From: Panorpa germanica
Taxonomy: Eukaryota; Arthropoda; Insecta; Mecoptera; Panorpidae
Assembly: GCA_963678705.1 (NCBI GenBank)
Contig: OY783218.1
Span: 10,302,152-10,366,151, forward strand
DNA length: 64,000 nucleotides
Reading direction: 5' to 3'
The translations under genes were made by a program, and so were the position numbers. Below the pieces are notes generated by a model. The model saw nothing but the letters and a program-made list of their open reading frames with translations. It searched no databases and was not told the DNA's origin. Positions within the stretch are counted from its first letter, which is position 1. Every line of letters starts with the position of its first letter. Shown here in pieces: positions 16,570 through 41,900 of this stretch.

Positions 16570-19500
16570 ATGATTCGGTTTTTGTCTTTGTTTTTATTTT
16601 TAAGTTTAGGTGCCTGCTCTGAGCCGTACAGGTACATATTTTATATTTGAAATAATGTTTTCTTTTTTATGCATATATTACGTTTACACAAACATAGCAT
16701 TTATGTAGCATATACGTCTACAAAGTAAATCTAGATGTACTTAGAGTAAATTATTAGTTAAAATTATAATGTTTTCTAATTCGCTGTCGATTGAGATTTA
16801 ATTTGTTTTTTAAATATTTATTCGATAAACTTTAGCTTTAAAAATATTCCTTAATCAAAGTAGGCCCTTAAGAGTTGCTTGTGAACTCATTTTTAAGGGT
16901 CTGTTTATAATTTTTGATAGAAATAAATGTTAATATATATGGAAGTATATTGGCGATTTTATTATTTTAAATATCCAAATGTTTACGGAGTTTTAGCTAT
17001 ATCAAATTTGAATTTCACTTTAATAATTAAAAGGAAAAAATGACTTTTTTAATTGTTAATATCTCCTAAAATATAAAGTGTTAATAAAAAATAATTGGAC
17101 ATTTGAGATCCTTATAGCCAACTTTATCAATATATAGTACAGTTTTATAGAAATAATGACAAGCCCATTGAATTTGATATGAGAGCAAGAAAAGAAAGAA
17201 TCATTTAGAAAGAGGGATGCTAGGTTTTAAAATAGGTTTTTCTTTCATTTTTATATAGACAAACCGTTCTTGTTTGCTGTGCAATATATTTTAGGTCTTA
17301 CGCGAAATCAATTAATTATCTTTTAGGTATATAATGAGAACTCAGTTGTATCTACTTTTAATGTTGGCACACAAAATTGTGCGAGGCCCTTTCTTTCTTG
17401 CTACAGGTTAATTCGCATGAGCATCCATTATGGAACTGATCAAGCCTTGCTAATAAAAATGAAATTTAAAAAAGTGGGAATTTTAAAACAGAATTTGTTT
17501 ATTTTTCCAGCCCGGCTTGGAGATGGGAATGCAAATCTAATAAATGCGTCAAAGAACCAATTGGGGAAGATCGCTCAACTTCTTTGTCACTAGCAGCATG
17601 TAAATTGTTTTGCGGGGAAGCGGGAGGATTATGGCCAATACCAACGGGAGAAATTCTTCTAGGAAATACAATTTGTAAAATAAATCCATCTAAAATTAGC
17701 CTCAAAGAAACGTACGACATAGTGAACACTGGAAAACTTAAGGATATCCTTGAAGAAGTTGTTAAGGTATGACACTTAAATACAAATTAATCTAAGATGG
17801 CGAAATTTCTTTTATTTACATTTTTACCATCTCTATTAAATAGCGATTTTAATTTTATCATCCTAAATATGGTCAATTAGTCATTGATTGTAATACTTGA
17901 GTTTTCGGCGATATTTATTCCGTGACTGGAAAAAAAATTTCCTATGTATTAGTTACACAGAACAGACAGCTCCTATTGTGACCTTATTCTCTATTCGCTT
18001 CTACATTAAAGCTTCGAGTTACACTACATTTTATTAATTTTATTTAACTAACTGACACTAACGACTACATCCATGTTGGCCTTAAGTCTCGCAATTTCTT
18101 GATACACCACTGGCTACAGGAATAGAGAACGATAATTACAATCAAACCACAATTCATATTTTTTCATGGTTTTAATGCCCTTTTTTCGTCATATCATTGT
18201 CAACTTTATGACTGTATAAAGAAAGAAAGTAGAAGAATAGTATTAAGTTTCACTGTAAGATGGGAAATAGTATCTTTTTAGATCGCTTGTTCCAGTTTGC
18301 CAAATAAATACATTAACCGAATTATGTCTCAACATAACTGCCCAGAAAACATTTTGGAAAAACTTTGACATCATAATGAAGACGCGTATGACTTTTTTGT
18401 CATGGAAGAGTTCATTTACAGCTCAGTTTCTCACAGTCGTTCATATAAAATGTCTATTTTATCAGCTACAAATGGCGAAACCACTCCACCTGTCGGAATA
18501 CAAATAAAATAAAGTTGATGCGAACTATAATTGAAGTGAAATAGTGATAGAAACGTCACAAAACAGGACACTTCACCAAATTGTTTACTGGGCTGAATGC
18601 TATTGTTAATTTAAATTGAATTTATAATGGTTTTTATTTGTAACTAAATTGTTGCTTAAATTTCCAGCGTTTTATCAGCCAAGTAGTCAAGAAAGTACCA
18701 AAACCAATAGTTCTAGAAGATGGCGGAAAAGAACTTAAAATTACTGTCGTAATAGAAGATAAGAAAAATCTAAGTAAGAAAAATAATACATTTTGTGAAA
18801 TTAAGTATTTTACGCAATATCATATATCTGCTAGTTTTATTATAGGTCTCTCACTGTCAACAAATGAGTCCTACTCTCTCAAAATTGAGGAGGATGGCGA
18901 AGATGTTGTTAGTGCCACAATTACAGCACCAACATACTTTGGAGCTAGACATGGTATCGAAACTTTGAGCCAACTGGTGGTTCTTGATGATATCCGAGGC
19001 GAACTGCAGGTACTGCCGAAAATTATTATGTTTTTGTAAGACAAACTTTGCAATCGATTTTTATCTATAAGCTATCGAAAATTTTGCACACACACACACT
19101 CTTGAATACAATGCATTTAAAATGCACTGAATAATATAAAGGAAGTTGTTTGTTCAAATGTATTTGCTTAATGTTATTGTATTCATAAAATGTGTACAGA
19201 GTACACACATTGCAACAACGTTTAGATGTAAATTATTTTTACTTAGACATGGTACATTCAAGCTAAGTGATGGCTTCACAAGTGTTATTCGGAATCTGTA
19301 TGTTTCCCCATTCAAATGCAATCAACACACGAAATTAATTTTTGCATTGTTTTGAAAGTTACAAAACTAGCATCACTAAAACTATTTTAACTCGTGAAAT
19401 AGTGGTTGGAATGTCATGAAATTTTAATACATATCATTTGAAGGTTAGTACTATCTAAAAATTGTATGGATTTGTCAATAGTGTTGCCATCTATATGTCC

Positions 19501-22500
19501 TTTTACGAACTTATTGAGTAATGTGATTCAACAGTAGTAAACCAATATACTTTGTTTACTAAAGTACTCCACCGAGTTCCATAAGTGCTAAGTACTTAAT
19601 ACTTTTTGATTTGAGATAGGCTTGAAGTGTTATTAGTTCCATAAACTAAATATTAAGGTTTCTATAATTATCTAACTGGATTATTATCTTTCCATTATGC
19701 ATCCTCTTAAAACGTCAAGTTCAAATATTTCATTAGATATTTTTACCATGTTTGAAATCATATCCTAATCCTGGCGTTAGCCAGGTGCAACAAATTTTAT
19801 ATAGTAAACTACAGCATTATTTTTTTTATTATTATTTTAATCTTTTTGCCATTAGGCACTACATTATTCCGCCTTAAAACTACCTATTCTCACTCCTTTC
19901 AAAAGAATAATTAAAAATACAAACAAAAGAGATAAATTTAATCTCCTACTTATTCTCTCCTCCTGCTACTCTCCTTCATGTTTCTACTCTGCCCTTCCTT
20001 CTCTCTATCTCTACCATCCACTGCTTCCCTTCACTGCCTCCCTTTAATAACTGCACAATCTTTTTAATCTTTTCTCACATGAATACTTAATGTGCTCCAG
20101 CGTTTGTATCTCTCTAGCGCACATCTTCCACATCCTTTCCCTCTATTTGCGCAGTATCTGCTACCTTTCTCTTCGTTTCCAAATCTAAATCTTCCGATTC
20201 TTCTTATGTTTCTATATATATCTCTCTCTCTCTCCCAAATCCTTTTGTATCTTTCATTATATTTGCTATTATGAATTTTTCCCATTCTTTCCTGCTGCTG
20301 TATCTCTCTTTCTCTGTTCCTTAGCTGGTCTTCCACACTTCTTGTGTCTTCTTTTCTCTGTTTATTATAATCTAATATATTTCATTGCAATCAATTCTAA
20401 AAGGACCTTTGTCTGATTAATAAAATCATAAACATTCTTAAGAAGGCTTTTACAAGTATTAATTAATCTTAAAAAAACTTTGTTAACGTTTGAAGAATAA
20501 ATCCTTTTCAGATGGAGTATTTTTAACTTTCGCTTAAGTAAAATATTTCATAGATTTAAGGTAATATCCATGACTAGTGTTACTAGATATCGACAGTGAC
20601 GAACTGAGAGTTGAGAAAAGGAAATATTCGACCACGCCTCCAAATAGCCGTTGGGTTCTTTTGAAATTTTGTTGATAATATTTTGTAACTATATAAATAT
20701 ATTTTCAGATTGCTAATAATGTTGCTATCAAAGATGAGCCAGTGTACTCCTACCGCGGCATCTTACTAGACACAGCCAGAAATTACTTTTCTGTTGCATC
20801 CATCAAGAGAACTATAGGTAAAAACTCTTACTCATTAATCAAAACATTTACTTTAAAATCTATTTGTTACATAATTTAGTGTCATAACATGTTACTATCA
20901 TACTTATGAAAACGAAATGCAATCGAAGTGTTGTTCGTTTTAACGAGTTAAGCGAAGTATTAGTAAACTCTTTCAGACTTCTACTTCGTCTGATTTAGTA
21001 GTTTAGTACCAACAACGCACTAGCACCAACAATTCATTAAACATTCTTTTTTTATAGACGCTATGGCTAGCACCAAATTGAATACTTTCCACTGGCATAT
21101 TACGGATTCTCACAGTTTTCCTTTCCAATCTAAATCCAGACCAGAATTATATAGAAAGGGGGCTTACAAACCACATCTTATCTACACTGTGGAAGATATC
21201 ACAAAGGTAATAACATCTACTATAGATAAAATACGTTGATGATTTAATCCTCTTGAAACTTGAATACCTCTTGTTGGAAAACTACGTACTTAAAAGTATA
21301 ACGCAATGCAACGTGATATTAATTTTCTTTTCGTTAAAAATGATGATTATCTATCACAGATAATGGACTATGCATTGATTAGAGGTGTACGAGTTCTTCC
21401 CGAATTTGATGCACCTGCTCATGTTGGAGAGGGATGGCAAGATCTTGGAGTAACTGCCTGCTTTAATTCTCAACCGTGGAGCAAATATTGCGTAGAACCT
21501 CCTTGTGGACAACTTGATCCAACAAAAGATAAATTGTAAGTTATTTTTCTATGAAGAAAATAAGTGTTTATATATATTGTTTACAAATGCATTGATTTGA
21601 TTTGTTATCATTGGTTTTTTTTACATTCTAGTGATGGTAATATTGTAATCTTTTTCAGATATGAAATCTTGGAAGATATCTACATTGATATGTACGATGT
21701 TTTCCAACCTGATATATTCCACATGGGTGGCGATGAGGTAAATTTTATGGCTTAATTAAATATAGTTCAAATTACGAGAGTTCGGCGGCAACTCATACTT
21801 AAAACAAGTTGTGGGGTATTAACAGCTGATATAACTAAAAAGCACTGACCCACTTATTTTTTTGTAATGCATATAGATACGTATAAAATAAAATTCATTA
21901 TCGTATTATAGATTTATACCGCTCTTATAACCTCTTGTAAGTATAAGCCGCTGCCGAACTATCGTGATTTTTAGCGAATTTTAAGTAGGTATTTATAATG
22001 TCATACTCTGGAACTGTTATTCCAACTTTATCTTTTTCCCCGCTGCCATTTGACTACGTTTGCCATCGGTATAAAACAAGATAAGTGTAAAAGAGATGCA
22101 GAATTAAACGTCAGAGCAGTAGCAGCTATTGCGGCAACTCATAAAATTTTCCGAAAGCAAAATATTACGCAGTAAAACAAAATTCAAACTTTAAATAGAT
22201 ATATCACTCAATTTTTGGTATTTAATAAAATAAAAACGGCAATATATATTAATTAACCAATATTTCAATAAAGAAATAATAAATCAACCCATAAAAATCA
22301 ATTCATAACGCAATGGTTTTAAGAAAAACAAATATTTGTTAGGTTTCAATGTCATGCTGGAACACAAGTAAAGAAATTCAAGATTGGATGCTAGAGAAGG
22401 GATGGGGCTTAGCAGAAAAAGACTTTATCAAATTGTGGAGCGTTTTCCAAGATAAAGCACTTGAAATATTCAATAGAGTAAGTATATTTAGAAATGTATA

Positions 22501-23539
22501 TTGTCATTAATAAACTTATTTAATAATGTCATTATTTTATAATAGGTTGCTGGCAAACAAATTCCAATTATTTTGTGGACGAGCCGACTGACTGAACTGC
22601 CTTTCGTTTTGGATTATTTGCCGAAAGAAAATTACATTATCCAAGTTAGTAACCTAGTAATAATTTAAATATATCTAACCCTAGTTTTAAACCGATTTTT
22701 TGTACATGGATTCAAACCAACACGAACCACAAAGAAATATTTTTTTTTGTAGTAAAGATACTATAGTTTGAGTGTCAGATATAATTGAAATTATGTTTCT
22801 TTCGGAATATTTGTTTAAGATTAGGTTTCATTTGTTTTCTGAAATTGTTCTTAAGATACAATCGGTAATAAACGTGCGAGCATATAAGTGCTTCTTATTT
22901 CTAATTGGTATTATGATTTCTTATATGATAATATGATTTTTTCATGTGTTAGATTTGGACCACAGGGTCTGATCACAAAATTAACGACTTGCTCTCCAAC
23001 GGCTATAAACTGATCATGTCAAACTACGATGCGTTGTATTTAGACTGCGGATTTGGAGGTTGGGTCACCGATGGCAACAACTGGTGTTCTCCTTACATTG
23101 GATGGCAGAAGGTGTATGAAAACAGTCCAAAAAAAATCTCAGGAAAATATTCAGATCAAGTTTTAGGTAAAATCTATTACATTTATACCCGAAACAACTA
23201 AATTTTTGCTACAAAGTAGTGTTGCTTTATTTTCTTCAGGTGGGGAAGCTGCTCTTTGGTCAGAACAAAGCGATGAGTACTCTCTTGATGCCCGTTTGTG
23301 GCCTAGAGCTGCAGCACTAGGAGAAAGACTATGGGCAGAGCCTAAAAACGATTGGAGAGATGCACAATATCGTTTATTAACTCACAGGTAATATCAAAGA
23401 AACAAACCAATCAATTAATTTTTTTAAATGATTAAAAACTTGGGTTTTCTTTAGGGAAAGATTGGTCGAGCAAGGAATAGCTGCGGAGAGTATTCAACCC
23501 GAATGGTGCATCCAGAATGAAGGGCAATGTCCTATATAA
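16570..23539 (+). CDS. Chitooligosaccharidolytic beta-N-acetylglucosaminidase (GH20), catalytically intact
   Basis: Thirteen exons: 16570-16631, 17511-17766, 18668-18773, 18846-19009, 20709-20817, 21058-21206, 21360-21535, 21659-21737, 22343-22477, 22546-22644, 22953-23166, 23240-23387, 23455-23539. They encode 593 residues. A signal peptide of about 17 residues precedes a GH20b-type N-domain and a GH20 barrel. The catalytic set is present: D249 in HWHITD, H303 in DAPAH, D366-E367 in HMGGDEV, Y474 and D476, W489, and the WSE motif. In insects this secreted enzyme removes terminal GlcNAc from chitin oligomers made by chitinases during moulting, by substrate-assisted catalysis using the 2-acetamido group. 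Introns carry M1 and M2 transposons and a LINE tail. A poly(A) signal AATAAA lies at 23574-23579. The assignment is firm; assignment to a particular Hex subgroup is not. Confidence 0.95.
16871..17169 (+). mobile_element. M1 MITE copy 5 (decayed, internally deleted)
   Basis: A 300 bp remnant in intron 1 of hexosaminidase 1. A mutated left end (TTGCTTGTG then CTCATTTTTAAGGGTC) and an intact ACAAGCCCATT right end flank a large internal deletion. Confidence 0.75.
18341..18592. mobile_element. M2 TIR element, short form (A)
   Basis: CCCAGAAAAC at the left and GTTTACTGGG at the right (consensus end CCCAGTAAACA), 252 bp, in intron 2 of hexosaminidase 1. Its interior (TCGGAATACAAAT, GATGCGAACTATAATTG) matches the element at 61289-61500. 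Confidence 0.75.
19345..19510. repeat. Dispersed repeat shared with 57150-57330
   Basis: The reverse complement of 57150-57330 aligns over about 150 bp, including GGAATGTCATGAAATTTT, GAAGGTTAGTACTATCTAAA and ATGGATTTGTCAA. Both copies lie in introns (hexosaminidase 1 intron 4 and lysozyme-like 2 intron 1). Its class is unknown. Confidence 0.65.
19817..20390 (-). mobile_element. 5'-truncated LINE tail in intron 4
   Basis: Read on the minus strand, 20336-20064 encodes an Arg/Glu-rich stretch with the motif [17 protein letters not shown] followed by Cys-containing residues. This resembles the C-terminal end of insect non-LTR retrotransposon ORF2 proteins, where RFRxGNE...SRYW precedes a C-x-x-C element. 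The frame then decays. Downstream (plus coordinates falling to 19817) is a purine-rich 3' UTR ending in an A-rich AATAATAATAAAAAAAA tail. A dead 3' fragment; the clade is not resolved. Confidence 0.65.
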
Positions 23540-24174: not shown

Positions 24175-24758
24175 AATGAGATTGTGTCCTCATTTTTTAA
24201 TGGTCGATTTTTCAATTGTTGATTGAAATTGATGGTAATAAATGTGTATTGGCGTGTCTATTTTATTAAAGCAATTAAAAGTTTGAATTGTAGTTTTAGC
24301 GCTAGAAATGGTCGGCCATTTTTGTATGACGTGAAATGCATTTTAACGTCAGTTATTTATTGAGTAGGTCAGTGATGTGGTAATGTTCTGTAGCTGTTGG
24401 TAGTCAAATAATCAAGTCAAGTCAAAAAATAATAAGTTTTTATTTTATTTAACCCTGCTAAGGCAGACATAATATTGAAATTTGATTGTTCCTTGATATA
24501 GCTGTAAATAATAATTGATATTTTGATATATAAATACATATAGCAGAGATTTATGATCTGTAAGGTTGGTAGCCTTACACAAGGATTGTGATGTCACATG
24601 CACTTGGAATGTGTACAACGTTGAATCCCTTTAATAATTAAAGAGACAAAATGACTTTCATAATTGTTAATATCTCGTAACATATAAGGAGTTATTAAAA
24701 AGTAATTGGACATTTGAGGTTCTAGTAACCAACTTTATCAATATATAGTACACTTTTG
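24175..24758 (+). mobile_element. M1 MITE copy 6 (short subtype, 3' end lost)
   Basis: Left end AATGAGATTGTGTCCT (two changes from consensus). Lacks the hairpin module; instead it has GGTTGGTAGCC joined to TTACACAAGGATTGTGATG. The last ~25 bp, including the right terminus, is missing. Confidence 0.85.
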
Positions 24759-24961
24759 TTTAAAGAGAATGTCTCAAATGCAATAAATTTAATTTAAAAA
24801 AAACAGTGCAGTAATAATGTTTCTACACGTGGAATTAATGCCACTGTACTTCAATCTAGTAAGCAGATGTTACCTAACGCCAATTTATTATTTGCTTTGT
24901 TTTTATTAGTTTGGATAATGTATTAAAAATAATTAAATTTTTTCTATTTATCAATTTTACA

Positions 24962-27900
24962 ATGTTATTTAAATGGATCATATTATTTATTTTAAATTGT
25001 GGTAATTGTTTAAACCTTGAGTAAGTGCATTTTAATATATTAAAATGTGTATATACATATCCAGTAAAGTGAAAAGTTAAAACTAGGGTTTTAGTCGTTA
25101 ATAAATTTGAACAAAGATAACATTTATAGGTCTGTATGGAGGTGGGAATGCAGGAAGGGCTTTTGTGTCAAATTACCCATTGATAACAATACATCTAACG
25201 CTATGTCGTTGACAGTATGCAAGCTAATTTGCAGTAAAGAAGCCAGCTTGTGGCCAGCCCCTACTGAATGTATTAAAATGGATACTGCCGTGTGTCAAAT
25301 AGGACTTTCTTCAATTAACCATAAGATAAATTGTGGTGAACACTGCAAAAGCGTCGAAATAATAACTAATAAAGCTATGCAGGTATGTAGTGCCACAGGT
25401 ACATAAATATTTCATTATATGCAACATAATTTACAATAATTTTGTTGCTAATAATATTTCAATATATGTATTTACAGAGATTTAGAAATCAAATAAAGAA
25501 TAAAATTCCCAAATACTTAAAACTGTCGGAAATTGGAGTACCATTAAATATTTATTTTGAAATAAAAAACAAAAGTCTAGGTAATAAACTTTGATATATT
25601 TTAGAACATAATTAGCGCCTTATCTTTCTACTAATGGGTCTTGGTAACATTGATGCTTCTTGTAGAGATGCCATTGTATGTCAATGAGAGTTACTACCTC
25701 AAAATTTCCAAGGAAGATGAAGGTGATGTATCAGCAAATATTCAAGCGCAGACATATTTTGGCGCAAGGCATGGACTTGAAACATTGAGCCAACTTATTG
25801 TCGTGGATGACATTAATGAGGAACTTAAGGTAACAGTAGTCAGAGACGGGGCTATAATAGGTTTAAAGCATTCTAGAAATAAATTTCTACTTATACGTTT
25901 TTCTTAAAGACATTTAAGACGTGCTAAGTAGATTAAAGGTTGAGGGTAATGAGCGCTCAATGAACATATAATAAATGAAATATAACTACCACCTGTATTG
26001 AAAACTGTTTCAAGCTAAATACTTTGTAGATTGCCTGCAACTTTTCTGTTAACGATGGACCAGTCTATCCTTATAGAGGCCTTATGATAGACACAGTTAA
26101 AAGTTATTATTCTGTCAAAGCCATAAAGCGTACAATTGGTGAGTTCTGGAGCCTACATAATACATATAGGCAACACCTTTAACATTAATGTATTATATTT
26201 TCCAGATGCTATGGCTACCACTAAATTAAATACTTTTCATTGGCATATTAGTGGTCCTCAAAGCTTTCCTTTTGAAGCAACAACATTTAACCAATTCCAT
26301 TTAACAGGAGCATTTAAACCACATTTAATATACACTGTATTAGATATCCGAAAGGTAGACTCAGTAATATGTTTTTGACACATTGAAGGCGGGAGACGTC
26401 ACGTTTCCTGATGCCTACAAAGTGTTAATGAAAAAGGTTTTATAATAAGTAAAAGTTATGATGCTGTGTTTATAATTAAATCTTCAGATTGTGAGATTTG
26501 CTTTAGTTCGTGGTGTTCGAGTGTTGCCAGAGTTTGACGCACCAGGAAATGTAGGTGAGGGCTGGTTAGATTTCGGAGTAATGGCTCGTTGTAAGCAACC
26601 TAAGGCGAAAGACTGTAAAGATCCACCCTGCTGGGTTCTTGATCCTACCAATCCGTTTATGTATGTCGAATTTAAGTTCAATTGTTTTTACGAGTGGCGA
26701 ATTGACCTGGACATTATTTCTTATCTTTGTGTCTTTACAATCAATATATTCAGACCCAATGCGCCACTGATGACTACCATTATTATAAACACATAAATCT
26801 AATACTCGAAGCCCCATGCTTTTAGTATTCGTTAGTTATATGATAAATTATGTTTCATATTTTAATTAATTCAATACTAAACGCATAACAAATAAAAACT
26901 TACTGTAAAAAAAGTATTAGAGATAAAACATAACCTCATTTATAATTTAATGTAATTATATTTACTTAACGTTTAGTTATTACCGAAGTTTAACATAATT
27001 TATATTACTAAATTTTGTAAGAACAAAATGTAATTGTGTTTAAACGAGAAATAATATGTTCATTTTTAATGTTACAGGTATGTTCTTTTGGATTATATTT
27101 ACAAGGATTTGTTCGCGGCTTTCAAAAGTACAATATTCCACATGGGTGGAAGCGAGGTACTTAAAAATGTTCAGATGATCTGTATAATACCTTTTAAACA
27201 TTTGCAGTCACTTTGACATCATATTGTGTATGATTGTTTTATTGTGAAATAATTCAATTTGATTTCACTCGTTCAAGGGAAATGTCAGTGATATGAACTA
27301 CAAATGGCAAAATCACTTCACCTGGTCTTACTACCGTACCAGTTTTGAAATAAACCATTAAAGTATAACAAGGACAGATATATCTTGTTTATTTTTCTAT
27401 GATATTCTGGTGAAATTAATTTTATCTCTACTAAAATAATTATTTTCAAATGTAAAGGAGACAACAATATCTCCATTTTTTAGTATCACTCAGCTATCCA
27501 TTTCACCAAAATGTTTACTGTGATAAATACCATACCAGTTTCTATTAACTACACCATTAAATAAGTAAATACTTTAATTGTAAATACTTACTAGTTATAA
27601 GAGATGCATACTAAACAGGCGCAAATAAATTTAAAATTTCTGTACTAGGTTTCAATCAATTGCTGGAAAGAAGATAAAAATATAACTAAATGGATGCATG
27701 AGAATAGATTTTATAAAAGAAAAGCATCTTTCTATACCCTATGGGCATTTTTTCAAACCATTGCTGTAAAGAAAATACATAAGGTACATTAATATAAGGA
27801 GTGACTGATCTGAAAGAGTTATACTACCATTACTCATCCAAACTAAATGTCATATTTATAAATATGGTCATTTAACATTTCAATCTATCATATATTTCTG

Positions 27901-30900
27901 CTACTATATAAACAGCATTACTAAATTTTTGCAAATTAACACTTAAAATCATTTAACGTATGAACATTGACATACATATTGTTAGATACTATAAAAATGA
28001 TATAAGTATGCCATCTCAGTTGAACTTTGTTGTGTAATAAAGATGGCAATAGATTTGAGGAGTAGATATTTCAGTAAGTCCTTTAAATAATTAAAAATAC
28101 ATGCATAACTATTTCAATTGATTAATATATTCTGTAATATTATATCTATTTCAAAAATAATTATATAATTGAGGTCCTAATATTTTAAAACAATATTTAC
28201 GCTCCAAATCTGACTGTTAAGTTTTTGAGAAAAAAGTATATTTCTTTTGTTGGGGTTTGAGTCTTTGGTGAAATTACGAATCTATAGATTGCAGGTAAAA
28301 TTCCAATAATCTTATGGTCAAGCAGTCTAACAAAAGAACCTTATTTAAATGAATATCTTCCTAAATCCAGCTACATTATTCAAGTAAGTACAATATTAAT
28401 TTCATCAATATAACATTCCAGTAAACAATTTGGTGAAGTTCGAGTCACTCGTACAATTCTATTCTAACGCTTTACAAGTTCTCTACCTGTCACAGATTTT
28501 GTGTTAGTTATTCTTTCTAGTATTCTATATTTTTCCAACATCATTCATTAAGTATTTCTGTTTCTTTCCCACATGGATATATTTTTTTTAAGTTCACTTT
28601 CATCTCATTTATTCCAAAGTGAGAGAGAAACGAGATGCGTTAGACAAGTAAAATATATTTTTCACCGTTACACTTGTATACTTGTATAATATTTCGTTCA
28701 GTGCAGATGTTTAAAGTATATGCTATCCTTTTTCAACAAATTTTTCTTTAATGGTAATAGACAGACGCTATCTCCCTCAATCCCCGAATATAATGTATAT
28801 AAACGAAGATAGCATCTAGCGATGGTAAGACAGAGGTTTTAAACCTAACGCAGACCTGCTGATCGTGGATTTTTGAATCACCAAAACAATGTAAAAAACT
28901 AATATAACGAGTATTGTTGCAGATGAATAATATTCATTAAAAAAATCACGATCCGTACTAAAGATTACATCTATTTATTTCTTCATTTAAATATTTATAT
29001 TTTGCAGACTCTAAAAAGTAGAATTCCATTAAGTTTTATACCCCTGATAGTGTCAAGTTTATAACTCCGGTCATAAATCATAAACCGACTCCGCTTTTAA
29101 TTCAGCAGTGAACCGTCGTTGCAATGTCTATAGCTCATAAAAAGGGCCTTTCCTATGATCGACTGAATAGAAAACGAACACGTTCCAGACAAAAAATTCA
29201 TGATATGTAATAGAAATTAAGTAGAATTTACTCCAAAATGTTTACTGGGATATTACAATAATATAAAATAACTGTCTTCATTGTATAGGTACGTAACGGG
29301 ATAAATAATGAACCAGTTCAAAAATTATTACAAAAGGAGTATCATGTAATAATATCCGACCAGGACACTTTAGATCTTGACAGTGGTATAGGTGATTGGA
29401 ACTCGAATCTTAAGAAAACTGGATCAAAATTTTTAGCATGTCAACGCATTTACGAAAGTAGTCTTCAGAAAAATAATAACCATAATCACTTTATTTTAGG
29501 TATTTGGTTTGTATAAAATTATTTGAATTTCAACTGTTATTTCAATATTTGCAATGAAAGAGTTGCGTTTAAGACACGGTTGTAATGGGCTTGTGTCCTC
29601 ATTTTTTAGAGGTCGATTTTCAATTGTTGATTGAAATTGATGTTAATAAATGTGTAATGGCGTGTCTATTTTATTAAATATCTAAATGCTGACGGAGATA
29701 TAGCAATTAAAAGTTTGAATTGTAGTTTTAGCGCTAGAAATGGTCGACCATATTTGTATGACGTGAAATGCATTTTAACGTCAGTTATTTGTTGAGTAGG
29801 TCAGTGCTGTGGTAATGTTCTGTAGCTGTTGGTAGTCAAATCAAAGAATAATAAGTTTTTATTTTATTTAACCCTGCTAAGGAAGACATAATATTGAAAT
29901 TTTATTGTTCCTTGAAACAGCTGTAAATAATATTTGATATTTTGATATATAAATACATATAGCAGAGATTTATGAGCTGTAAGGTTGGTAACGTGTAAAC
30001 TTGCCAGAGTTCTATCTTGAATAACGCTCTGTTGTATAAAAGAGATAGCAACTAGCGGCTGTGATGTCACATGCATTTGGAATGTTGTCCAACGTTGAAT
30101 CGCTTTAACAATTAAAGAGAAAAAATGGCTTTTTTAATTGTTAATATCTCCTGAAATATAAGGAGTTATTAAAAAATAATTGGACATTTGAGGTTCTAGT
30201 AACCCACTTTATCAATATATAGTACACTTTTATAGAAATTGAGACATAGGACACAAGCCCATTGTAGGGCTAGCAATGAGATTGATATTTTCTTGATGGT
30301 GTGATGAACAAGAAAGTAATATATACATTATAAAAGTGCGTTATAAATGTTACAAAGAAATAACTATTAATAATTTTTAATAATAGTCCAACGGTACAAT
30401 AATGTGCTGCATAATTATGTTATATATTTAACTATTTGTTAAATAAATAAAATTATGTAAGTAAGCGTAATAGATATATGTATTCAAGTTTAGTTGAACA
30501 AAGATGTGTGACAGTTAGAAAGGAACTTAATCAAATAAGGTTGTATAATATAGTGAAATTTTAAATTTTAATTTTTATAGGTGGTGAAGCAACACTTTGG
30601 TCGAAATACAGTGGTGAAAATGTGCTCGACTTAAGACTTTGGCCAAGGGTAGCTGCACTGGGTGAAAGACTTTGGAAAGAACCCAAAAACAAATGGAGCG
30701 AAGCTCGAGATCGTTTATCCACACATAGGTAAATCTTTATCTATATAGACTGTATTCAGAAAACAACAACAGCATTCAGCAATTTCCATTATTCCTAATA
30801 TATATCTAGTTACAATTTTACTAAGAATTTGGCGATATCTATTTATTCAGTGCTTTAAGCGGCCACTATTCTCGCAGTTTCTTGAATTCTTAAGAGTTTC

Positions 30901-31190
30901 GTTAAAATAACGTGGTCTGACTAATAGATTAATAGATTTCTGATTAATAGAATATTAAGCAGAAAAAGTACAAAGCTTGAAGTAATACCAACTTTGTCCA
31001 AACAAAAAGAATCGTTAAAACAAACAAGAGGAAGGAATACATATCGTTCACCTAGATTGCTTTAATTTTAGTTGCTAATTTAATACACAATTTTCTTTTA
31101 AGGGATAGACTTCTGCAACAAGGTATTAAAGCAGATTGTATACTGCCACTGTGGTGCATACAAAATGAAGGACAGTGTGGTAACAAGTAA
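24962..31190 (+). CDS. Hexosaminidase paralogue 2, GH20 fold with degraded active site
   Basis: Thirteen exons: 24962-25020, 25130-25382, 25478-25580, 25666-25829, 26030-26138, 26206-26354, 26488-26660, 27078-27156, 27649-27783, 28288-28383, 29289-29499, 30581-30728, 31103-31190. They encode 588 residues with no stops or frameshifts. Exon boundaries and phases match gene 1, so it is a tandem duplicate. Residues needed for GH20 chemistry are changed: HWHITD becomes HWHISG (G246), DAPAH becomes DAPGN (N300), HMGGDE becomes HMGGSE (S362, with the acid/base Glu 363 kept), ALYLD becomes TLDLD, WSE becomes WSK, and the region holding the +1-site Trp ([10 protein letters not shown]) is replaced. The Arg of DTARN is Lys217. 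Frame, splice sites, signal peptide and cysteines are preserved, so a non-catalytic GlcNAc-glycan-binding or regulatory role is more likely than a plain pseudogene. That role is inference. Confidence 0.9.
27194..27526. mobile_element. M2-related element, decayed (B)
   Basis: Lies in intron 8 of hexosaminidase 2. It shares ACTTTGACATCATA, CTACAAATGGC, CACTTCACCTG and a CACCAAAATGTTTACTG right end with copies A and E. The left terminus is eroded. Confidence 0.5.
28417..29249. mobile_element. M2 TIR element, long form (C), 833 bp
   Basis: Begins CCAGTAAACAATTTGGTGAAG and ends CCAAAATGTTTACTGGG. Lies in intron 10 of hexosaminidase 2. The interior is shared with the reverse-oriented element at about 62520-63163, and its two flanks with the deleted derivative at 51822-52196. 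No transposase seen. Confidence 0.8.
29584..30263 (+). mobile_element. M1 MITE copy 7 (near full length)
   Basis: 680 bp in intron 11 of hexosaminidase 2, with both AATGGGCTTGTGTCCT-type termini and a hairpin-module remnant (TTGTATAAAAGAGATAGCAA). A good reference for the long subtype. Confidence 0.92.
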
Positions 31191-31261: not shown

Positions 31262-32257
31262 ATTGGCGATATCTATTTATTCAGTGCATTAAGCGACCGC
31301 TATTCTTGCTGTTTCTAGAATTCTAAGGCCTGTCTCAGTATGGCACCGTATTTAAGCGAATTTCTGCCGGACGTATACGGGCTACTACGCTTTACCTATC
31401 CGAACCCTGTAAATGTAATGAGACCTCTCTGGTCCTCTCAGACTGCAAGCTACAAAGCCGTCCGAATACGGGCGAATTTTATCCAAGCGTTACCACTACT
31501 ACAACGATATCCTATCCGAACCTTTGTAAATGCAAACAGCCGCCTCAGACTGGAGGGGATACCTAAGATCGTTTGTTGTTACGTTGCAATACGGTTCAAA
31601 TGAGATCTATCGGCTTGTGGCGAGTATGTTCTGCATGCAGTTTATGTTTGTATTTCAGTGAATCATGGACACCGATACCGATACCGATACGATAGAACTA
31701 AATTTAAATTCACGACAACCAGAACTCAGATATATAATAAATGCTAAAGTCCCTTTAATACCAGTAGTGTATCGATAAAAATTAAAGTTAAAGTTTGCTC
31801 TCATAATAAATTATATTAGTGCTAAAGAACTCCAATACACCCCCTACAAAACACAAGTTAGTTATCTGACGACATAGGCGGTTTGCTTTGTAGCTCATCC
31901 AACCCGCCGATTTACGTCCGAATACGCCGTCGCTTAAATACAGTCCCATACTGAGACAGGCCTAAGAGTTTCAAAAAGATAACGTGGTCAGACTTATCTA
32001 CTTCCTGCTTAATATTCTATTAAGCAGAAAAAGTACAAAGCTTGAAGTAATACCAACTTTGTCCAAACAAAAAGTATCGTTTAGACAAACAAGAGGAAGG
32101 AATACATATCGTTCACCTAGATTTCTTTCATATTAGTTGCTAATTAATACACAATTTTCTTTTAAGGAATAGACTTCTGCAACATCGTGTGAAAGCAGAT
32201 TGTTTACAGTCACTGTGGTGCATACAAAATGAAGGACAGTGTGATGATAACAAGTAA
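31262..32257 (+). repeat. Tandem copy of the last exon and preceding intron of hexosaminidase 2
   Basis: The segment at about 30824-31190 is repeated at 31262-32257, split by a 636 bp MITE (31327-31962). The duplicated terminal exon is 32167-32257, preceded by TTTTCTTTTAAG as in the original. It reads RNRLLQHRVKADCLQS then [13 protein letters not shown] and a stop. Compared with exon 13 it has about eight amino-acid differences and one extra residue. It is open and in the same splice phase, so it could serve as an alternative last exon. No poly(A) signal was seen between the two exons. Confidence 0.85.
31327..31962. mobile_element. MITE with GGCCTGTCTCAGTATGG ends and TAA duplication
   Basis: The TIRs (about 17 bp) are nearly perfect complements, and TAA stands on both sides (31324-31326, 31963-31965). 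The uninterrupted duplicate at about 30885 shows the pre-insertion site. PIF/Harbinger-like. The interior has direct repeats around TATCCGAACC(C/T)TxGTAAATG. Encodes only an open stretch with no recognised domain. Confidence 0.8.
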
Positions 32258-33304
32258 TTTGTTTTATTTACACCCTATTGTTACTCAACTATTAATTCAT
32301 AAATATTCTATGAATATATTTATTCAAAGCACAACTTCCTTAATACATATTATTTCTTTTTTTAAGAAATGCCACTTTAGAGAAAAGGAAGAAGAATGCA
32401 GCTTCCACATCTTGGAGTTCTTTCACTATCATTAAAATGATAATGATTGTAATAGCATATTTGCTATTATCGTAAAAATATTCTGTGTTTGGTAAGATAC
32501 ATATATTACAGTCTCTAGTAATAGGTAAACAAATGAATTATCAAAACGAATTATTTATTATATTTTAATTAAATTACATTATTAACAAAAATTTCATAAA
32601 AAGCATACAAATCAATATTAAATCATGATAATGACTAAAATGCTTTTCACATAAATTATATTAAAATAATTTAATATGAGACTTATAATAATAAAGAAAT
32701 ATTTGTTCCAATAATACGTATTTGCATTATGATGAAATATTATTTTGTTTATTAGTAACAAAATATACATAAGATCTACTCGAAATAATAATTATATGTA
32801 ACATGTGATAAACTTATGCAAAGTAATTTTAAGTTTACATGTTTTAAATCAAGTTATAATGGAATATATTAACAAGCTAAATGCGTTTAATTATTTATAA
32901 TTAAGTTAAATTCTTCAATATTTATGAAAAATATATCATTACTTTTTTGTTTATAACTAGCCCTCTATAATTTTAAACTTTTTGTTAAATTCATTTTTGA
33001 ATTTATGGAATATTAGGGCACTGTCTAGAGTTTAAAAACAATAATTCAAAACTTGTTAAAAAGATGTTTCCATATTTCAGGAATCAGCCTTTAATATAAA
33101 CCTACAGTCTGCCAAATTGAAACCAGGAATTGTTATATAAGTAAAAGGTATTATGAATTACTTATGAATATTTAAGATAAATAATGCTATCGCCATTATT
33201 TTAATAAATAATTTAATTTTACATTGATGGTTTACTTAAAATAAAAGATACAATAAAATCTATAAACTATGAGTAGTCTTTCTTAAATCCAAGTTGTTTT
33301 TAAA
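32258..33304. other. Intergenic, very AT-rich
   Basis: Lies between the hexosaminidase 2 alternative last exon and the convergent TMEM50-like gene. It probably contains both 3' UTRs. No gene or transposon recognised. Confidence 0.5.
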
Positions 33305-34406: not shown

Positions 34407-35081
34407 ATGATGTGTATGTATTTGATAACGGGTTCATTAATATTCTTGTTTTTCTTTAATAATAGAATATTATACTTAACATATAAAATTATCAGAAGAA
34501 AACGATTTCGTAATATTAAGAAAAAAAGTAATCCCGATAAACCAGTGAAAACTATGATTTGTATTGGATCAGGTGGTCACACAACAGAAATGATGAAACT
34601 TGTGGAACATTTGAACCCTAAAACATATAATCCAAGAGTTTATGTGATGGCAAGTACAGATTTAACCAGTAAGACTAAAATTGTATCTACTGAATTTAAA
34701 TTTAATGTATCAGATGATCATGATTACAAAATAGTACGTATTCCAAGAAGTAGAAGAGTACACCAAAGCTACATAAGTTCTATTTTTACAACATTAATTG
34801 CAATTTTTGCTTCCATCCCTGTTGTGATAACTAATAAACCAGATCTAATTCTTTGTAATGGACCTGGCACTTGTGTGCCTATTTGTATAATAGCTTTCTT
34901 GAGTAAAGCTTTTTTTATTAATAGAAATGTAAAAATTGTTTTTATTGAAAGTTTCTGCAGAGTTGAAACTATTTCATTAACTGGAAAAATATTAGGAATT
35001 TTTGCAGATGAAATTATTGTACAATGGAAACAATTGCAAAAAGTTTGTACGAGAGCAGAATGTTTTGGAAGACTAACTTAA
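34407..35081 (+). CDS. ALG14: ALG14, UDP-GlcNAc transferase membrane subunit
   Basis: Intronless, 224 residues. A hydrophobic helix (about residues 5-25) anchors the protein in the ER membrane, followed by a basic stretch. The glycosyltransferase-B half-domain starts with CIGSGGHTTEM (residues 52-62) and includes RVYVMAST, IPRSRRVHQSY, LILCNGPGTCVPI and FIESFCRVETISLTG, all hallmarks of ALG14. The C-terminus ends in VQWKQL...FGRLT. ALG14 recruits the soluble catalytic partner ALG13 to the cytosolic face of the ER and forms the enzyme that adds the second GlcNAc to dolichol-PP-GlcNAc in N-glycan assembly. Met1, Met2 or Met4 could all start translation. An AATAAA overlaps the stop codon (35080-35085). 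Confidence 0.96.
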   Translation: MMCMYLITGSLIFLFFFNNRILYLTYKIIRRKRFRNIKKKSNPDKPVKTMICIGSGGHTTEMMKLVEHLNPKTYNPRVYVMASTDLTSKTKIVSTEFKFNVSDDHDYKIVRIPRSRRVHQSYISSIFTTLIAIFASIPVVITNKPDLILCNGPGTCVPICIIAFLSKAFFINRNVKIVFIESFCRVETISLTGKILGIFADEIIVQWKQLQKVCTRAECFGRLT

Positions 35082-35385: not shown

Positions 35386-38232
35386 TTAATTTAATTTATT
35401 TGTGGAAATTAAGGCAATTGAAACAATGATTAAAAAAAGAAATGGTTGATTTTTAGTAGATATACTTCTTCCCAGGCCAGGTACTAGGAGATTTTCACCG
35501 GCCTCACCATCAGCACTGATTGTGCCTCCATTATTTTTAATGCCATCACCTAAAAAAAATGTTAAAAAATCATTTAGTATATGGGTAACTGATGTATATA
35601 AATAAACATAAATAATACGTTTCCCTCACCTTCATTACATAAATCTTCAGAGCATGATCTATAATATGTTTTAAAGGTAAAATCTTCTACTTCTGTATTT
35701 ATAAACTAAAAAGGAAAATACATTTCTTTAAAATTATAGTATTCATTTAATAATTGTTAATTGATATGATCGAATACCAAAATGTTTTTCTAAATACATG
35801 ACCACGTGGGGTACTATTATTATATATGTATTCTACAATAAGTTAGATAAATTATTTCCTAGTCTATTGCTTACTTGTATAGTAAAAACATTTACGATGC
35901 AAAATAATTTGATATATAACTAGAAATGTTAAATATACTAAAATAATAACTATAAGACTTATTCAATAAAATGAAAATATAACTAATAAGACTTATTTAA
36001 TAAAATACAGATTATCTTTGTAATAAGTATATATTAAAGGCTGTTATTTTTTTTAGTTTACTAAAAAATTATTTATTGTATTTTTTTTACTCACTCTAAT
36101 CCTTGAATAAACTATACATTTCTTTAGACAATTTATTAATATAAAATAGTGTTACAAAATATTTAGATTTCGATATACAGTAAAAATTTATCACTTACCA
36201 AGGGAGCGCTTTCGCAACCTCTTTGGAAGCTCACAAGTTTTCCTTTTGGGTCCTAAAAATATTAAGAAAATAGTTTAAATTGTCTAATAATATAATATGC
36301 TAATACAATCTGTAAAATAGTAATATAAATTCACTATACACATTTATGTAGCTTAAGCTTATTAAGATTTGATCTTAATTTTGTGTAGATTGTAAGAATA
36401 CAATATTTTACATAAAATTTTATTATCTACCCACTAAACACAAAATATGAATGTTACGTTATATCATGTAATGTTTATTAAAACAAAACCTAGGTTATAT
36501 TTAATCTAAAAGTCTTCTTTTATTATTTTATAGCTACTCTACAAACCATTAATCGTTGAAATGAACTCAAAATTGTATAATTCTTAAAAGAATCTTCAAT
36601 GGGCAAAAAAAATATTCTTCAAGCCGAAAAATAAACGTTGTATCTTAAATAAAATTGGTTACCTGTAATTGCAAACTTTAAATACACCTAACTGTGTTTA
36701 GCGCATATTTAATATTATTATTTAATGTTTAGGGGATTAGAAATGTGTTAGAAATGGTCCAATAAATTAGAAACAAATAATCTAATCAGAATTAGTAACA
36801 TAACTAATAAAATATACCTAAGATTATAATATTGTTTTTAATTAAGTTTAGTGTTACAACATTCCAAGTTATTTCGATAGGAATTATAATATTACAAGAT
36901 AAAATATTATTATAAATATATCTGTACATATTTCAAAATATAATACACACAAATTCTGCGACAGCTTACGAAGACACAATAATATATTCATTCAAAGCTG
37001 AATGCACACTATATATATAAACAGAAAATTAAGAAAATGTTAATAAATTAATTGTAAATAATTCAGTGTATTAATGTAAAATTACTTTTTGTTCAATAAA
37101 AATGTTCTGAACTTGAACTTTAAATATCTCCTTGATATTGTTCGTATTTTATTAACAGTAATAATAACATATTATTTTTGTTTGTATTTCATATTATTTT
37201 GTAGTGATTTTTAATAAATGTCTTCTGTAAAAATTATAGATTTTTATATGTATTGTGTCCTCATTTTTTAGTGGTCGATTTTTCAATTGAAATTGATGTT
37301 AATAAATGAGTATTGGCATGTCTATTTTATTAAATATCTAAATATTGACGGAGATATAGCAATTAAAAGTTTGAATTGTAGTTTTAGCGCTAGAAATGGT
37401 CGGCCATATTTGTATGACGTGAAATGCATTTTAACGTCAGTTATTTGTTGAGTAGGTCAGTGCTGTGGTAATGTTTTGTAGCTGTTGGTAGTCAAATAAT
37501 CAAGTCAAATCAAAGAATAATAAGTTTTTTTTATTTAATCCTGCTAAGGCAGACATAATATTGAAATTTGATTGTTCCTTGAAATAGCTGTAAATAATAT
37601 TTGATATTTTGATAAATAAATACATATAGCAGAGATTTATGATCTGTAAGGTTGGTAACCTTACACAAGGATTGTGATGTCACATGCACTTGGAATGTGT
37701 ACAACGTTGAATCCCTTTAATAATTAAAGAGACAAAATGACTTTTTTAATAGTTAATATCTCTTAACATACAAGGAGTTATTAAAAAATAATTGAACATT
37801 TGAGGTTCTAGTAACCAACTTTATCAATATATAGTACACTTTTATAGAAATTAAGACATAGGATACAAGCCCATTCATAATGTTCGGTTTTACCTGCAAT
37901 TCCTGACGCACAATTGTACAATATTTTTTAGAACAAGCAACTATATTCTGTCCAACAACGGAATGTGGGTCAGTGAGACAACTTTGATCAGTATCACTTC
38001 CGGCAATTGAGCAAGCGAAACAATCTAAAGCTGAAAATATATTGCAAATTTAAATATTTTTGTATATAAATATACATATTTTGATTACATTTCTGATAGC
38101 ATGAGTATAATAACTAATATTAAAACTTAATAATAACTTTTACTAACTATATGTAAATAATTATAACACCTTACCATTTATTTGGCCAACGTAATATATA
38201 AACGCACTTACAAATATAAATAATTTATACAT
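35386..38232 (-). CDS. Secreted Ly6/uPAR (three-finger) protein, probably GPI-anchored
   Basis: Five exons on the minus strand: 38232-38175, 38030-37894, 36252-36199, 35705-35630, 35549-35386, encoding 162 residues. A signal peptide of about 20 residues (MYKLFIFVSAFIYYVGQINA) leads into LDCFACS, the usual first strand of a Ly6 domain. Further cysteines follow in QSCLTD, VACSKKYC and GCESAP, and the domain closes with SCSEDLCNE, the Ly6 end signature (C-N). A Ser/Gly-rich linker then leads to a C-terminal hydrophobic stretch (FLFLIIVSIALIS), which fits a GPI-anchor signal. Insect Ly6 proteins act at cell surfaces, for example in septate junctions and in channel or receptor modulation. I cannot assign this one to a named member. 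Intron 2 contains M1 copy 8. Confidence 0.85.
37247..37875 (+). mobile_element. M1 MITE copy 8 (short subtype)
   Basis: Lies in intron 2 of the Ly6-type gene. The left terminus is eroded (TATTGTGTCCTC); the right end GATACAAGCCCATT has one change. It has the TTACACAAGGATTGTGATG junction in place of the hairpin module. Confidence 0.88.
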
Positions 38233-38913: not shown

Positions 38914-41900
38914 TTAATATGAATTATTTTCTCGAGGATTGCTCGTCGTTGATATTGGCGGTAAATAGGTATTTCCAGAAGTAGAAGGCTTGTAGCTTGC
39001 AATGGCATTTTCTTTATAATCTGGAGTAGCAGGTGTGGTTGAAACAGAGGGCGAGTAAGACGGTGTCGTACTCACCATAGTTGGCCTCTCGTTTGATTCA
39101 ACGTTAGTGAATGGAACTTGCGTCGGTTGTTGGTTAATGTTTGTAGGTAAAAATGAATTACTGGGCTGCTGCGCAAAAATGGGTATCAGGAAAACTGGGT
39201 AAGGAAACGCTTGTGGAGGAGGCTGGCCATTTTGAGGTTGCGCATTATAAGATTGTTGTGGAAATTGAGTCTTTGTATTGTCAGGTGGTAGATATTTATT
39301 TGAAGGTGTTGTAGGAGGTGGTTGTGAAGGAATTGGAGAAGGAGGCGGGATGGAGACCGTTGGTGCAGCTTGTGGTGGAGATGTAGGAGCAGGGGGTACT
39401 GGGGGCAGATAAGTATTACTTGGAATTGATTGTGGAATAGGTGACGGTCCTGTAGGATATCCATTAGATGGTATTGGTACAGGCGGTCGTGATACTGGGG
39501 CAGGAGGAGAATAATTATTATTTGGAATAGGAGTAGGTGTTGGTCCTGCAGGATATCCACTAGAAGGTATTGACTGCGGAAATGGTGCCGGTGCTGGAGG
39601 TCGTGAAACAGGAGCAGGTGCTATAGGAGGAAGATAATTATTATTTGGAATAGGAGAAGGTGAAGGTCCTGTAGGGTATCCATTAGATGGAATAGGTTGT
39701 GGAGCAGGGGTTGGTGCGGGGGGTCTTGTAATAGGAGCAGGAGGAGAAGGAGGAAGATAAGTATTACTTGGATATGATTGAGGAATTGGAGAAGGTGCAG
39801 GTCCTGTAGGATATCCATTGGGCTGAGGAGAAGGCGTCAATGCCGGAGGTACTGGGGGAAGATAATTATTATTTGGAATGGGAGAAGGTGAAGGTTCTGT
39901 AGGGTATCCATTAGGTTGAGGAGAAGGTGATGGCGGAGGTCTTGGAACAGGCACAGAAGGTGATGGAGGAAGATATGTGTTAGTAGGTCCGGGTTGAGGA
40001 GTTATTGATGGGGCTGGTGATTGTACAAAGGGTTGCTGAGAAGAATAAGCAGGCGGTTCAGGAGCAGGATAGTTATAGCTTCCTTGAGTTGTTGAAGTAG
40101 CCTGCGGCACTCCGTAATTATATTTCTGTTTCACAAAAGTTCCTTTAACTTGTTGCGCTTGTACCTGAGAATTTTGTTGAGGATAGTTATAGGAATCGGG
40201 AACAGGAGTCGGTCCTTGTACAGCGAATGATGAAGATCCTGATGAACTAGAAGATTGGGAAGTCGTAACAGATGAAGGTGGTAAGTAAGTATTAGGAGAT
40301 GTAGGAGCCGAATAGCTCGGAGTAGGAGACGGATAGTTAGTTGGAGAAGGCGAAGATATCATAGGTTGAGGGTAACTATAAGATTCTGGCTTTACTTGAC
40401 CTTGGGTAGGCGTACTGGTTTGAGTGGTTTGAACAGAAACTGTAGGTTGCGGGTAGTTGTATGAGCCAGTTTGTGCTGGTTGTTGAGGACTTGGAGAGGT
40501 GTTGTACCCTGAGGGATTGTAACCAGCTGGATTATTTTGCTGTGGTTCTGGGTAGTTGTAAGATTGTGGAGTACTTTGGATTTGTACAGTTGGAGGCGGG
40601 GAATAAGACGGTTGTGGGGATGGTATATTAACAGTAGTTGGATTTGAGTTGGGTGGGAGATATGTGTTAGCAGGACCTGCTGATGTGGGAGCAGGATAAG
40701 ACGGTTGAGGTTGTGTTTGGAATGTCGATGATGTTGCTGTAGAAGAAGACGAGGAATAAGACATTGTTTGAGTAGTTGGGTTATTATTTGGCGGTAAATA
40801 TGAACCGCCAGGAGTAGAAGGTGGTGTATTATAGGAAGGCTGCGGTGGAGTATAAGAAGGTTCTGGACTTAGCGATGTTTGAGATCCATAATTTGTTTGG
40901 CGTGGTGATTCTTGTATGTTTGGTGGTAGGTATGTATTAGGAGGAGGTCTTTGTGGGGCTCCATATGACGGTGACGGTATGGGTGAGGTTGGATTTGGAG
41001 CAGGTGGTAAGTAGGTATTGGTTGGAAGTGAAGGCGGTCTGTAAGACGGCTGAGGGGGGCCATAAGAAGCGGTCGGTGGTGAAGTTTGAGGTGGGCTATA
41101 AGTAGCAGGTCTGGAAACATCTGGTTGTTGCTGCACTGCTGGTGGTAGATAACTTTGCGCAGGGGTTGATGGCCTCATAGTTGTTGTAGGTCTGTATGTA
41201 GTTGGCGGGGGTCCGTACGAAGGTTGCGGCTGAGCAGGCGCGAATGGCTTAGGCGTTGAAAGTGGTGCTCCATAAGATGCTTGCGGTGGTCCATACGCTG
41301 CTTGAATATTTTGATACTGTGAATTAGAATTTTGAGAAGGTGCAGGATAATTATAAGATCCTGATGTTGATTGTTGAACAGGTGGTGTTGTTGGTGTTTG
41401 GTAGGCTGATGATTGAGTAACTGCATTTTGTGGAACGGAGTATGAATAACCACCGTTTGTAGATGGCTGCTGTGGAATTTGACTAACAGGAGGTCCTGTA
41501 GGACGAGCTGTAACTTGCACCGCTTGTGAAGGATATGAATACCCTGCTTGTGGTCCTGCTGTTGAAGTTTGTTGAATTATTTCTCCGTACGAGTTTGAAG
41601 ATGGTTGCTGAGTTGTTGAACTTGGTCTTTGTTGTTGTTGTTGCACTTGTGGAGAATTGTAATTATACCCCTGTTGAGATTGACCATTTCTTCCTTGATA
41701 GTTCATAAATGGCATTTTGAATTGCGGTGCTGATGATAACGGATCTGGTTTGGGGTAACTGTATGACGGGTCAATTTGGTTTGGCCTGAACGGAGCTTCC
41801 ATATATTGCGGACGCGGTATTGAAACCGTTGTCTGTCTTGGTGACCCTGAACTGTAGCCATTTTGTTGTTGACTTGCAGGATAACCTCTTTGTTGTTGTT

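Follow-up and report, generated by a model that had tools for sequence, protein, structure and literature searches.

A 64,000-nucleotide stretch of the Panorpa germanica genome (the window; positions are counted within it unless stated otherwise) carries two GH20 genes side by side, gene A and gene B. Gene B raises a simple question: what does a GH20 gene do when its reading frame is intact and most of its active site is gone? We consider it likely that B is a tandem group I GH20 paralogue that has lost its hydrolase function and has been retained as a folded, secreted protein, in other words a GH20 pseudoenzyme. B is a candidate gene, and its retention probably serves some function other than the cleavage of chitin.

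Rebuilt from the DNA, gene B extends from 24962 to 31190 on the plus strand. It has 13 exons that encode 588 amino acids without a stop, and all 12 introns are of the GT–AG type. It starts 1.4 kb 3′ of the end of gene A, on the same strand and with the same exon plan. Exon 1 (24962–25020, donor GTAAGT) holds the start codon and the signal peptide (MLFKWIILFILNCGNCLNLE). Exon 2 (25130–25382) encodes the N-terminal part with four conserved cysteine columns (OfHex1 31, 36, 55, and 59). Exons 3 (25478–25580), 4 (25666–25829), 5 (26030–26138), 6 (26206–26354), 7 (26488–26660), 8 (27078–27156), 9 (27649–27783), 10 (28288–28383), 11 (29289–29499), and 12 (30581–30728) follow, and exon 13 (31103–31190) ends in the stop codon. 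The thirteen open exons, canonical splice sites, signal peptide, and preserved N-domain cysteines of the preliminary description were all recovered in our model. The frame it proposed, 24962–31190, is indeed open, but its end may be short, as a copy of exon 13 and a possible exon 14 lie 3′ of it. Stops, frameshifts, and lost splice sites, the marks of an old pseudogene, were not found across the 13 exons. On our own score, mean donor strength is equal in the two genes (4.83 in B, n=12; 4.78 in A, n=11), and the mean pyrimidine content of the acceptors is slightly poorer in B (0.655 versus 0.715).

Gene A spans 16570–23539 on the plus strand and encodes 593 amino acids once the predicted exon 1 is included. 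Exons 2–13 (17511–23539) encode an intact group I GH20 with 59% identity to OfHex1 (reference 3NSM). All 14 of the OfHex1 pocket residues defined below are present, in agreement with the earlier view that the neighbour of B is an intact GH20. The putative exon 1 (16570–16631) was only third by score among four candidates that passed the filter, and its likeness to a signal peptide decided the choice; with it, the numbering of A matches the residue numbers of the preliminary description. Gene A looks like an insect moulting enzyme gene of the NAG1/Hex1 type. The identity between A and B is 49.7%, and that between B and OfHex1 is 43.3% (570 aligned columns).

The family of B is clear. Residues 206–544 match the Pfam GH20 domain (PF00728) with 239.1 bits (cut-off 22.3), and the GH20b2 accessory domain (PF14845) scores 52.4 bits (cut-off 27). 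A, B, and OfHex1 group together in the tree (99/99 with nine rows and 100/99 with five rows), apart from NAG2, FDL, and the HexA/B types. No order among the three is supported by the tree. A and OfHex1 differ at 225 columns; of these, B agrees with A at 66, with OfHex1 at 29, and with neither at 130. We tried to place B as the sister of A from these matches, but since the branch of A is short, 66 against 29 does not settle the order. A search of the 464 Mb assembly with OfHex1, in which the best candidates were scored, yielded 29 matches, each of them in A, in B, or in one of the genes that we take, on similarity, to be NAG2-like (C14, 15.0 Mb), FDL-like (C10), and HexA/B-like (a tandem pair on C14). 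Among these best-scoring candidates, only A and B are of the group I type. For a match on C9, tblastn with A and OfHex1 against 8 kb there gave no hit at E 0.01. In probes for the insect order, TTAGG repeats were hit twice and TCAGG not at all; the 30K lipoprotein family (PF03260) gave no hit, and the control was silent too. The HexA/B-type pair lies at C14:121500–131400, and the automatic model of its second gene contains stop codons at an exon joint, probably through a modelling error. The NAG2-like gene (C14:15.03 Mb) is an uninterrupted 586-residue open frame that is intronless over the matched part, in contrast to A, B, the FDL-like gene, and the HexA/B-like pair.

To describe the pocket we used 14 OfHex1 residues: the 11 named as critical in the accessible text of PMC3741120, which we converted from OfHex3 to OfHex1 numbers, and V327, E328, and W490 of the +1 site. 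B retains four of them (E368, W424, D477, and W524) and has lost ten. In OfHex1 numbering, the position of R220 is K217 in exon 5, D249 is G246 (26253–26255) in exon 6, and H303 is N300 (26548–26550) in exon 7, where V327 and E328 are K323 and D324. In exon 8, D367 is S362 (27151–27153), and the next codon keeps the acid/base glutamate E368 as E363 (27154–27156). Exon 10 retains W424 as W418. Exon 11 is the most decayed, with W448, Y475, and W490 replaced by R442, D469, and T484 and D477 retained as D471; exon 12 keeps W524 as W517 and replaces E526 by K519. The A/B pairs listed in the preliminary description (D249/G246, H303/N300, D366/S362, Y474/D469, and R220/K217, in A numbering) are exact in our alignment. 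It was also right about the retained acid/base glutamate (E367 in A, E363 in B), the change of the WSE glutamate to lysine (E525/K519), and the replaced block with the +1-site tryptophan (W489/T484). Three further losses stood outside its list: W447 to R442 (W447 being OfHex1 W448), V327 to K323, and E328 to D324.

The catalytic D–E pair of OfHex1 (D367–E368) is thus absent from B, where it reads S362–E363. At the D249–H303 pair, R220, Y475, E526, and W448, B has G, N, K, D, K, and R and so matches none of the six, whereas each of the eight other GH20s compared has all six. With K, D, and T at V327, E328, and W490, the +1 site, a group I trait, is missing as well. Four of the changes at the sugar site (W448R, Y475D, E526K, and V327K) bring in an opposite or new charge. 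The equivalents of HEXB D196 and D208 are retained. In the GH20 mechanism, D367 and Y475 position the acetamido group, the D249–H303 pair tunes E368, and R220 and E526 hold the sugar. Hydrolysis by B is not expected, since it has neither the pair that positions the acetamido group nor the D–H support of the acid/base glutamate. We infer that B is translated and folds, and that the product would be without hydrolase activity. Roles of these pocket residues are described in the accessible parts of PMC3741120, PMC3531433, PMC3344231, and PMC2492878.

The loss was compared with the rest of the protein in an alignment of B with eight other GH20s (A, OfHex1, NAG2, FDL, HexL1, HexL2, and human HEXB and HEXA). 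HexL1, HexL2, HEXA, and HEXB are partial, and the columns counted are those free of gaps in all nine rows. HexL2 was kept among the eight although its automatic model has two stops in frame at a single joint, probably a modelling error, and the NAG2 row begins at the first methionine (541 residues), although the open frame is longer. There are 65 gap-free columns invariant in the eight. B retains 3 of the 10 that lie in the pocket and 50 of the 55 that lie elsewhere (Fisher p=1.1×10−4), the pseudoenzyme pattern of fold invariants kept and catalytic residues lost. The five missing ones outside the pocket are at OfHex1 positions 261, 332, 463, 497, and 529. Where A and OfHex1 are identical, B agrees at 4/14 pocket columns and at 212/320 others (p=0.007). 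The cysteine columns common to A and OfHex1 are retained at 10 of 12, and both losses (478 and 491) fall within the altered loop of exon 11. This exon, which carries the +1-site loop, has the lowest A–B identity of the exons of B (28%, versus 69% between A and OfHex1); the identity is 57–69% in exons 4–7, 10, 12, and 13 and 33–50% in exons 2, 3, 8, and 9. Judged from these alignments, the loss in B is targeted to the site, with the fold positions guarded, and goes beyond general divergence.

The B branch is about eight times longer than that of A (1.11 versus 0.14 changes per site). The pairwise ω (dN/dS) between A and B by codon maximum likelihood is approximately 0.05, with an upper limit of approximately 0.10, and ω=1 is worse by 129 lnL. 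As dS between the two is saturated (4 or more), an estimate for the branch of B itself relies on clock-like synonymous change; on that assumption it is perhaps 0.1–0.2. When the coding sequence of A was mutated neutrally, the mean number of stops had reached 2.7 once protein identity fell to 96%, and 16.6 once it fell to 62%. Runs without any stop made up 4.5% of 200 at 96% identity, 1% of 100 at 90%, and 0 of 60 at 62%; the score counted stops, with indels and splice sites outside the count. Neutral drift is thus rarely stop-free past 4% protein change, and any neutral phase of B must be short. Together, the low ω and the neutral stop counts suggest that B probably lost its active site under continued selection on the frame. 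This concerns the past of B and says nothing firm on whether the gene is alive today. The earlier proposal of a conserved pseudoenzyme stands to this extent: B is a secreted GH20 whose fold positions are retained, whose site is lost, and whose divergence was mostly constrained.

B is also the lone basic protein of the nine (pI 9.0 versus 4.7–6.3; net charge +17 versus −3 to −27 in the eight others, several of which are partial). We rejected this charge as a sign of a new role because neutral drift often reaches it. When A drifted neutrally with stops avoided, a net charge of +15 or more arose in 27.5–33.5% of 200 runs per setting at 49.7% identity and in 9.5–10% at 60%.

The 3′ end of B is less simple. 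A segment of approximately 370 bp that includes exon 13 occurs twice, at 30829 to about 31200 and at 31263 to about 32270. The second exon copy (32167–32257, plus strand) is open and has the same acceptor as the first. In both copies a donor-like site, AA|GTAATT, overlaps the stop codon. The main aligned block of the two (316 columns, part of it intron) is 87% identical; identity is 90% over the exon-bearing stretch and 92% over the intron stretch beside it, and by eye there are some eight amino-acid differences. We considered the second copy as a conserved alternative exon and rejected it as evidence: divergence in its exon stretch is about equal to that in the neighbouring intron, and it looks unconstrained. 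An insertion of approximately 630 bp (31326–31965) with matching inverted ends (GGCCTGTCTCAGTATGG) interrupts the second copy of the segment and resembles a small DNA transposon.

If the second exon copy were spliced to 32367, a possible exon 14 (32367–32475, plus strand) would follow, with an in-frame tail, ...KNAASTSWSSFTIIKMIMIVIAYLLLS-stop, of small residues and a hydrophobic end; the phase of the first copy is identical. Under a simple rule, such a tail follows 3 of the 256 strong acceptors in the window, that of exon 14 among them. Pro rata, about four strong acceptors are expected per 2 kb, so the chance of such a tail is approximately 3–5%. In A, the nearest AATAAA lies 35 bases past the stop. 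Neither AATAAA nor ATTAAA was found in the 500 bases past the first stop of B. The possible exon 14 itself contains an ATTAAA at 32431, at a distance of 174 bases from the second stop; 3′ of this exon, an ATTAAA occurs at 32568 and an AATAAA at 32690. These motifs leave the choice between the ends undecided, and exon 14 as a GPI-anchor exon is suggestive.

How else could B be explained? It may have been constrained for long as a non-catalytic or altered protein and be an unexpressed pseudogene today, with no disabling mutation yet. The fast branch of B would fit such a recent death, and so would the drifting exon-13 duplicate and the two copies of a repeat, one within intron 11 and one shortly before exon 1; approximately 0.02 substitutions per site could pass stop-free at the 4.5% level of the neutral simulation. 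We regard this as unlikely, as the frame, splice sites, and signal peptide are intact and the structural invariants are retained at 50 of 55. Alternatively, B could still be an enzyme with a changed chemistry or substrate, in which E363 and the tryptophans would act on a non-acetamido ligand or with another nucleophile. This is very unlikely: D367, Y475, H303, D249, R220, E526, and W448 are all replaced, even though E368, W424, W524, D477, and the equivalents of HEXB D196 and D208 remain.

Other dead relatives of glycosidases are lectins, and two tryptophans of the pocket (W424 and W524) are still present in B. The old cleft could in principle bind GlcNAc oligomers without cutting them, and the preliminary description had offered a binder of chitin oligomers as one role. 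The alignment weakens that suggestion. The residues that hold the sugar were lost alongside the catalytic ones: R220, W448, Y475, and E526 are replaced, as are all of the +1 residues V327, E328, and W490, which makes a chitin-oligomer lectin very unlikely. PMC3344231 puts the cost to OfHex1 of mutating Trp448 and Trp490 at more than 2000-fold.

If B is a pseudoenzyme, it might partner chitin-processing proteins without catalysing anything itself, enzyme A being the simplest candidate. We put this forward tentatively. Such a partner could work in solution or, if the transcript includes the possible GPI exon, attached to the cell surface, and it would not do so through the old pocket as a GlcNAc-oligomer lectin. 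Exon 11, the worst preserved, includes the region that lies near the dimer interface in human Hex, and its altered loop counts against a standard heterodimer. For the dimerising regulator suggested in the preliminary description, a partner among the Hex proteins is plausible, since BmHex3 was recovered from Bombyx moulting fluid in a pull-down with OfHex1 (PMC3741120). A partner or surface role is the mechanism that we prefer, on the thin support of two analogies, this pull-down and the GH18 imaginal disc growth factors. A more specific version is rather improbable: B as the GH20 counterpart of these growth factors, devoid of catalysis and of the old sugar binding, held by GPI at the surface of the epidermis by way of an acquired exon, and acting beside A as its docking or regulatory partner.

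B resembles the insect group I GH20s (NAG1, OfHex1, and BmChiNAG) in its domain order, its N-terminal cysteine module, its 43% identity to OfHex1, and its tandem position with a group I gene. It differs from them in the loss of 10 of 14 pocket residues and of the +1 loop with its two cysteines, and in its possible C-terminal GPI tail and its pI of 9.0. OfHex3/BmHex3, the sperm-plasma Hex that is also present in moulting fluid, offers the precedent of a second GH20 as a partner of Hex1 (PMC3741120). It is, however, active and has the catalytic residues that B is without. Human HEXA and HEXB share the catalytic domain family, whose invariants B mostly retains outside the pocket (50/55), but they have all 10 invariant pocket columns, of which B has 3. 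The inactive GH18 relatives that became growth factors in insects are a likeness in another family, as a chitin-enzyme fold was reused there too (PMC3097210, accessible part); they occur in several insects, whereas B is a GH20 known from one genome.

The accessible part of a silkworm survey (PMC8998872) covers nine HEX genes; it locates the conserved catalytic sites within the GH20 domains and speaks of no loss. Among the open-access matches listed, we found no report of an insect GH20 without the catalytic residues. B may be a parallel, in the partner enzyme family of chitin breakdown, to the GH18 case. If expressed, B would provide, next to a moulting-type enzyme, a naturally occurring separation-of-function variant and with it a direct test for non-catalytic roles of Hex-type proteins in the cuticle. 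The Ostrinia relative of the moulting-type enzyme is under study as an insecticide target.

The window contains several further features. A repeat of approximately 600 bp is present in three copies (24198–24789, 29630–30263, and 37286–37875); one ends 170 bp upstream of the start codon of B and one lies in its intron 11. A fragment of it was seen by eye near 17000–17170, in intron 1 of A. Downstream of B, an ALG14 gene is present as a single frame at 34407–35081 (Pfam Alg14, 209.2 bits). On the minus strand, 38914–42312 is an open frame of 1132 residues rich in Pro, Ser, Gln, and Tyr, with a start like a signal peptide. It matched no Pfam family at E 0.001, and its product is possibly a cuticle or silk-like protein. 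At 47341–50991 there is a PPR-repeat gene in two adjacent open frames (Pfam on the first frame), presumably LRPPRC/bicoid-stability-factor-like.
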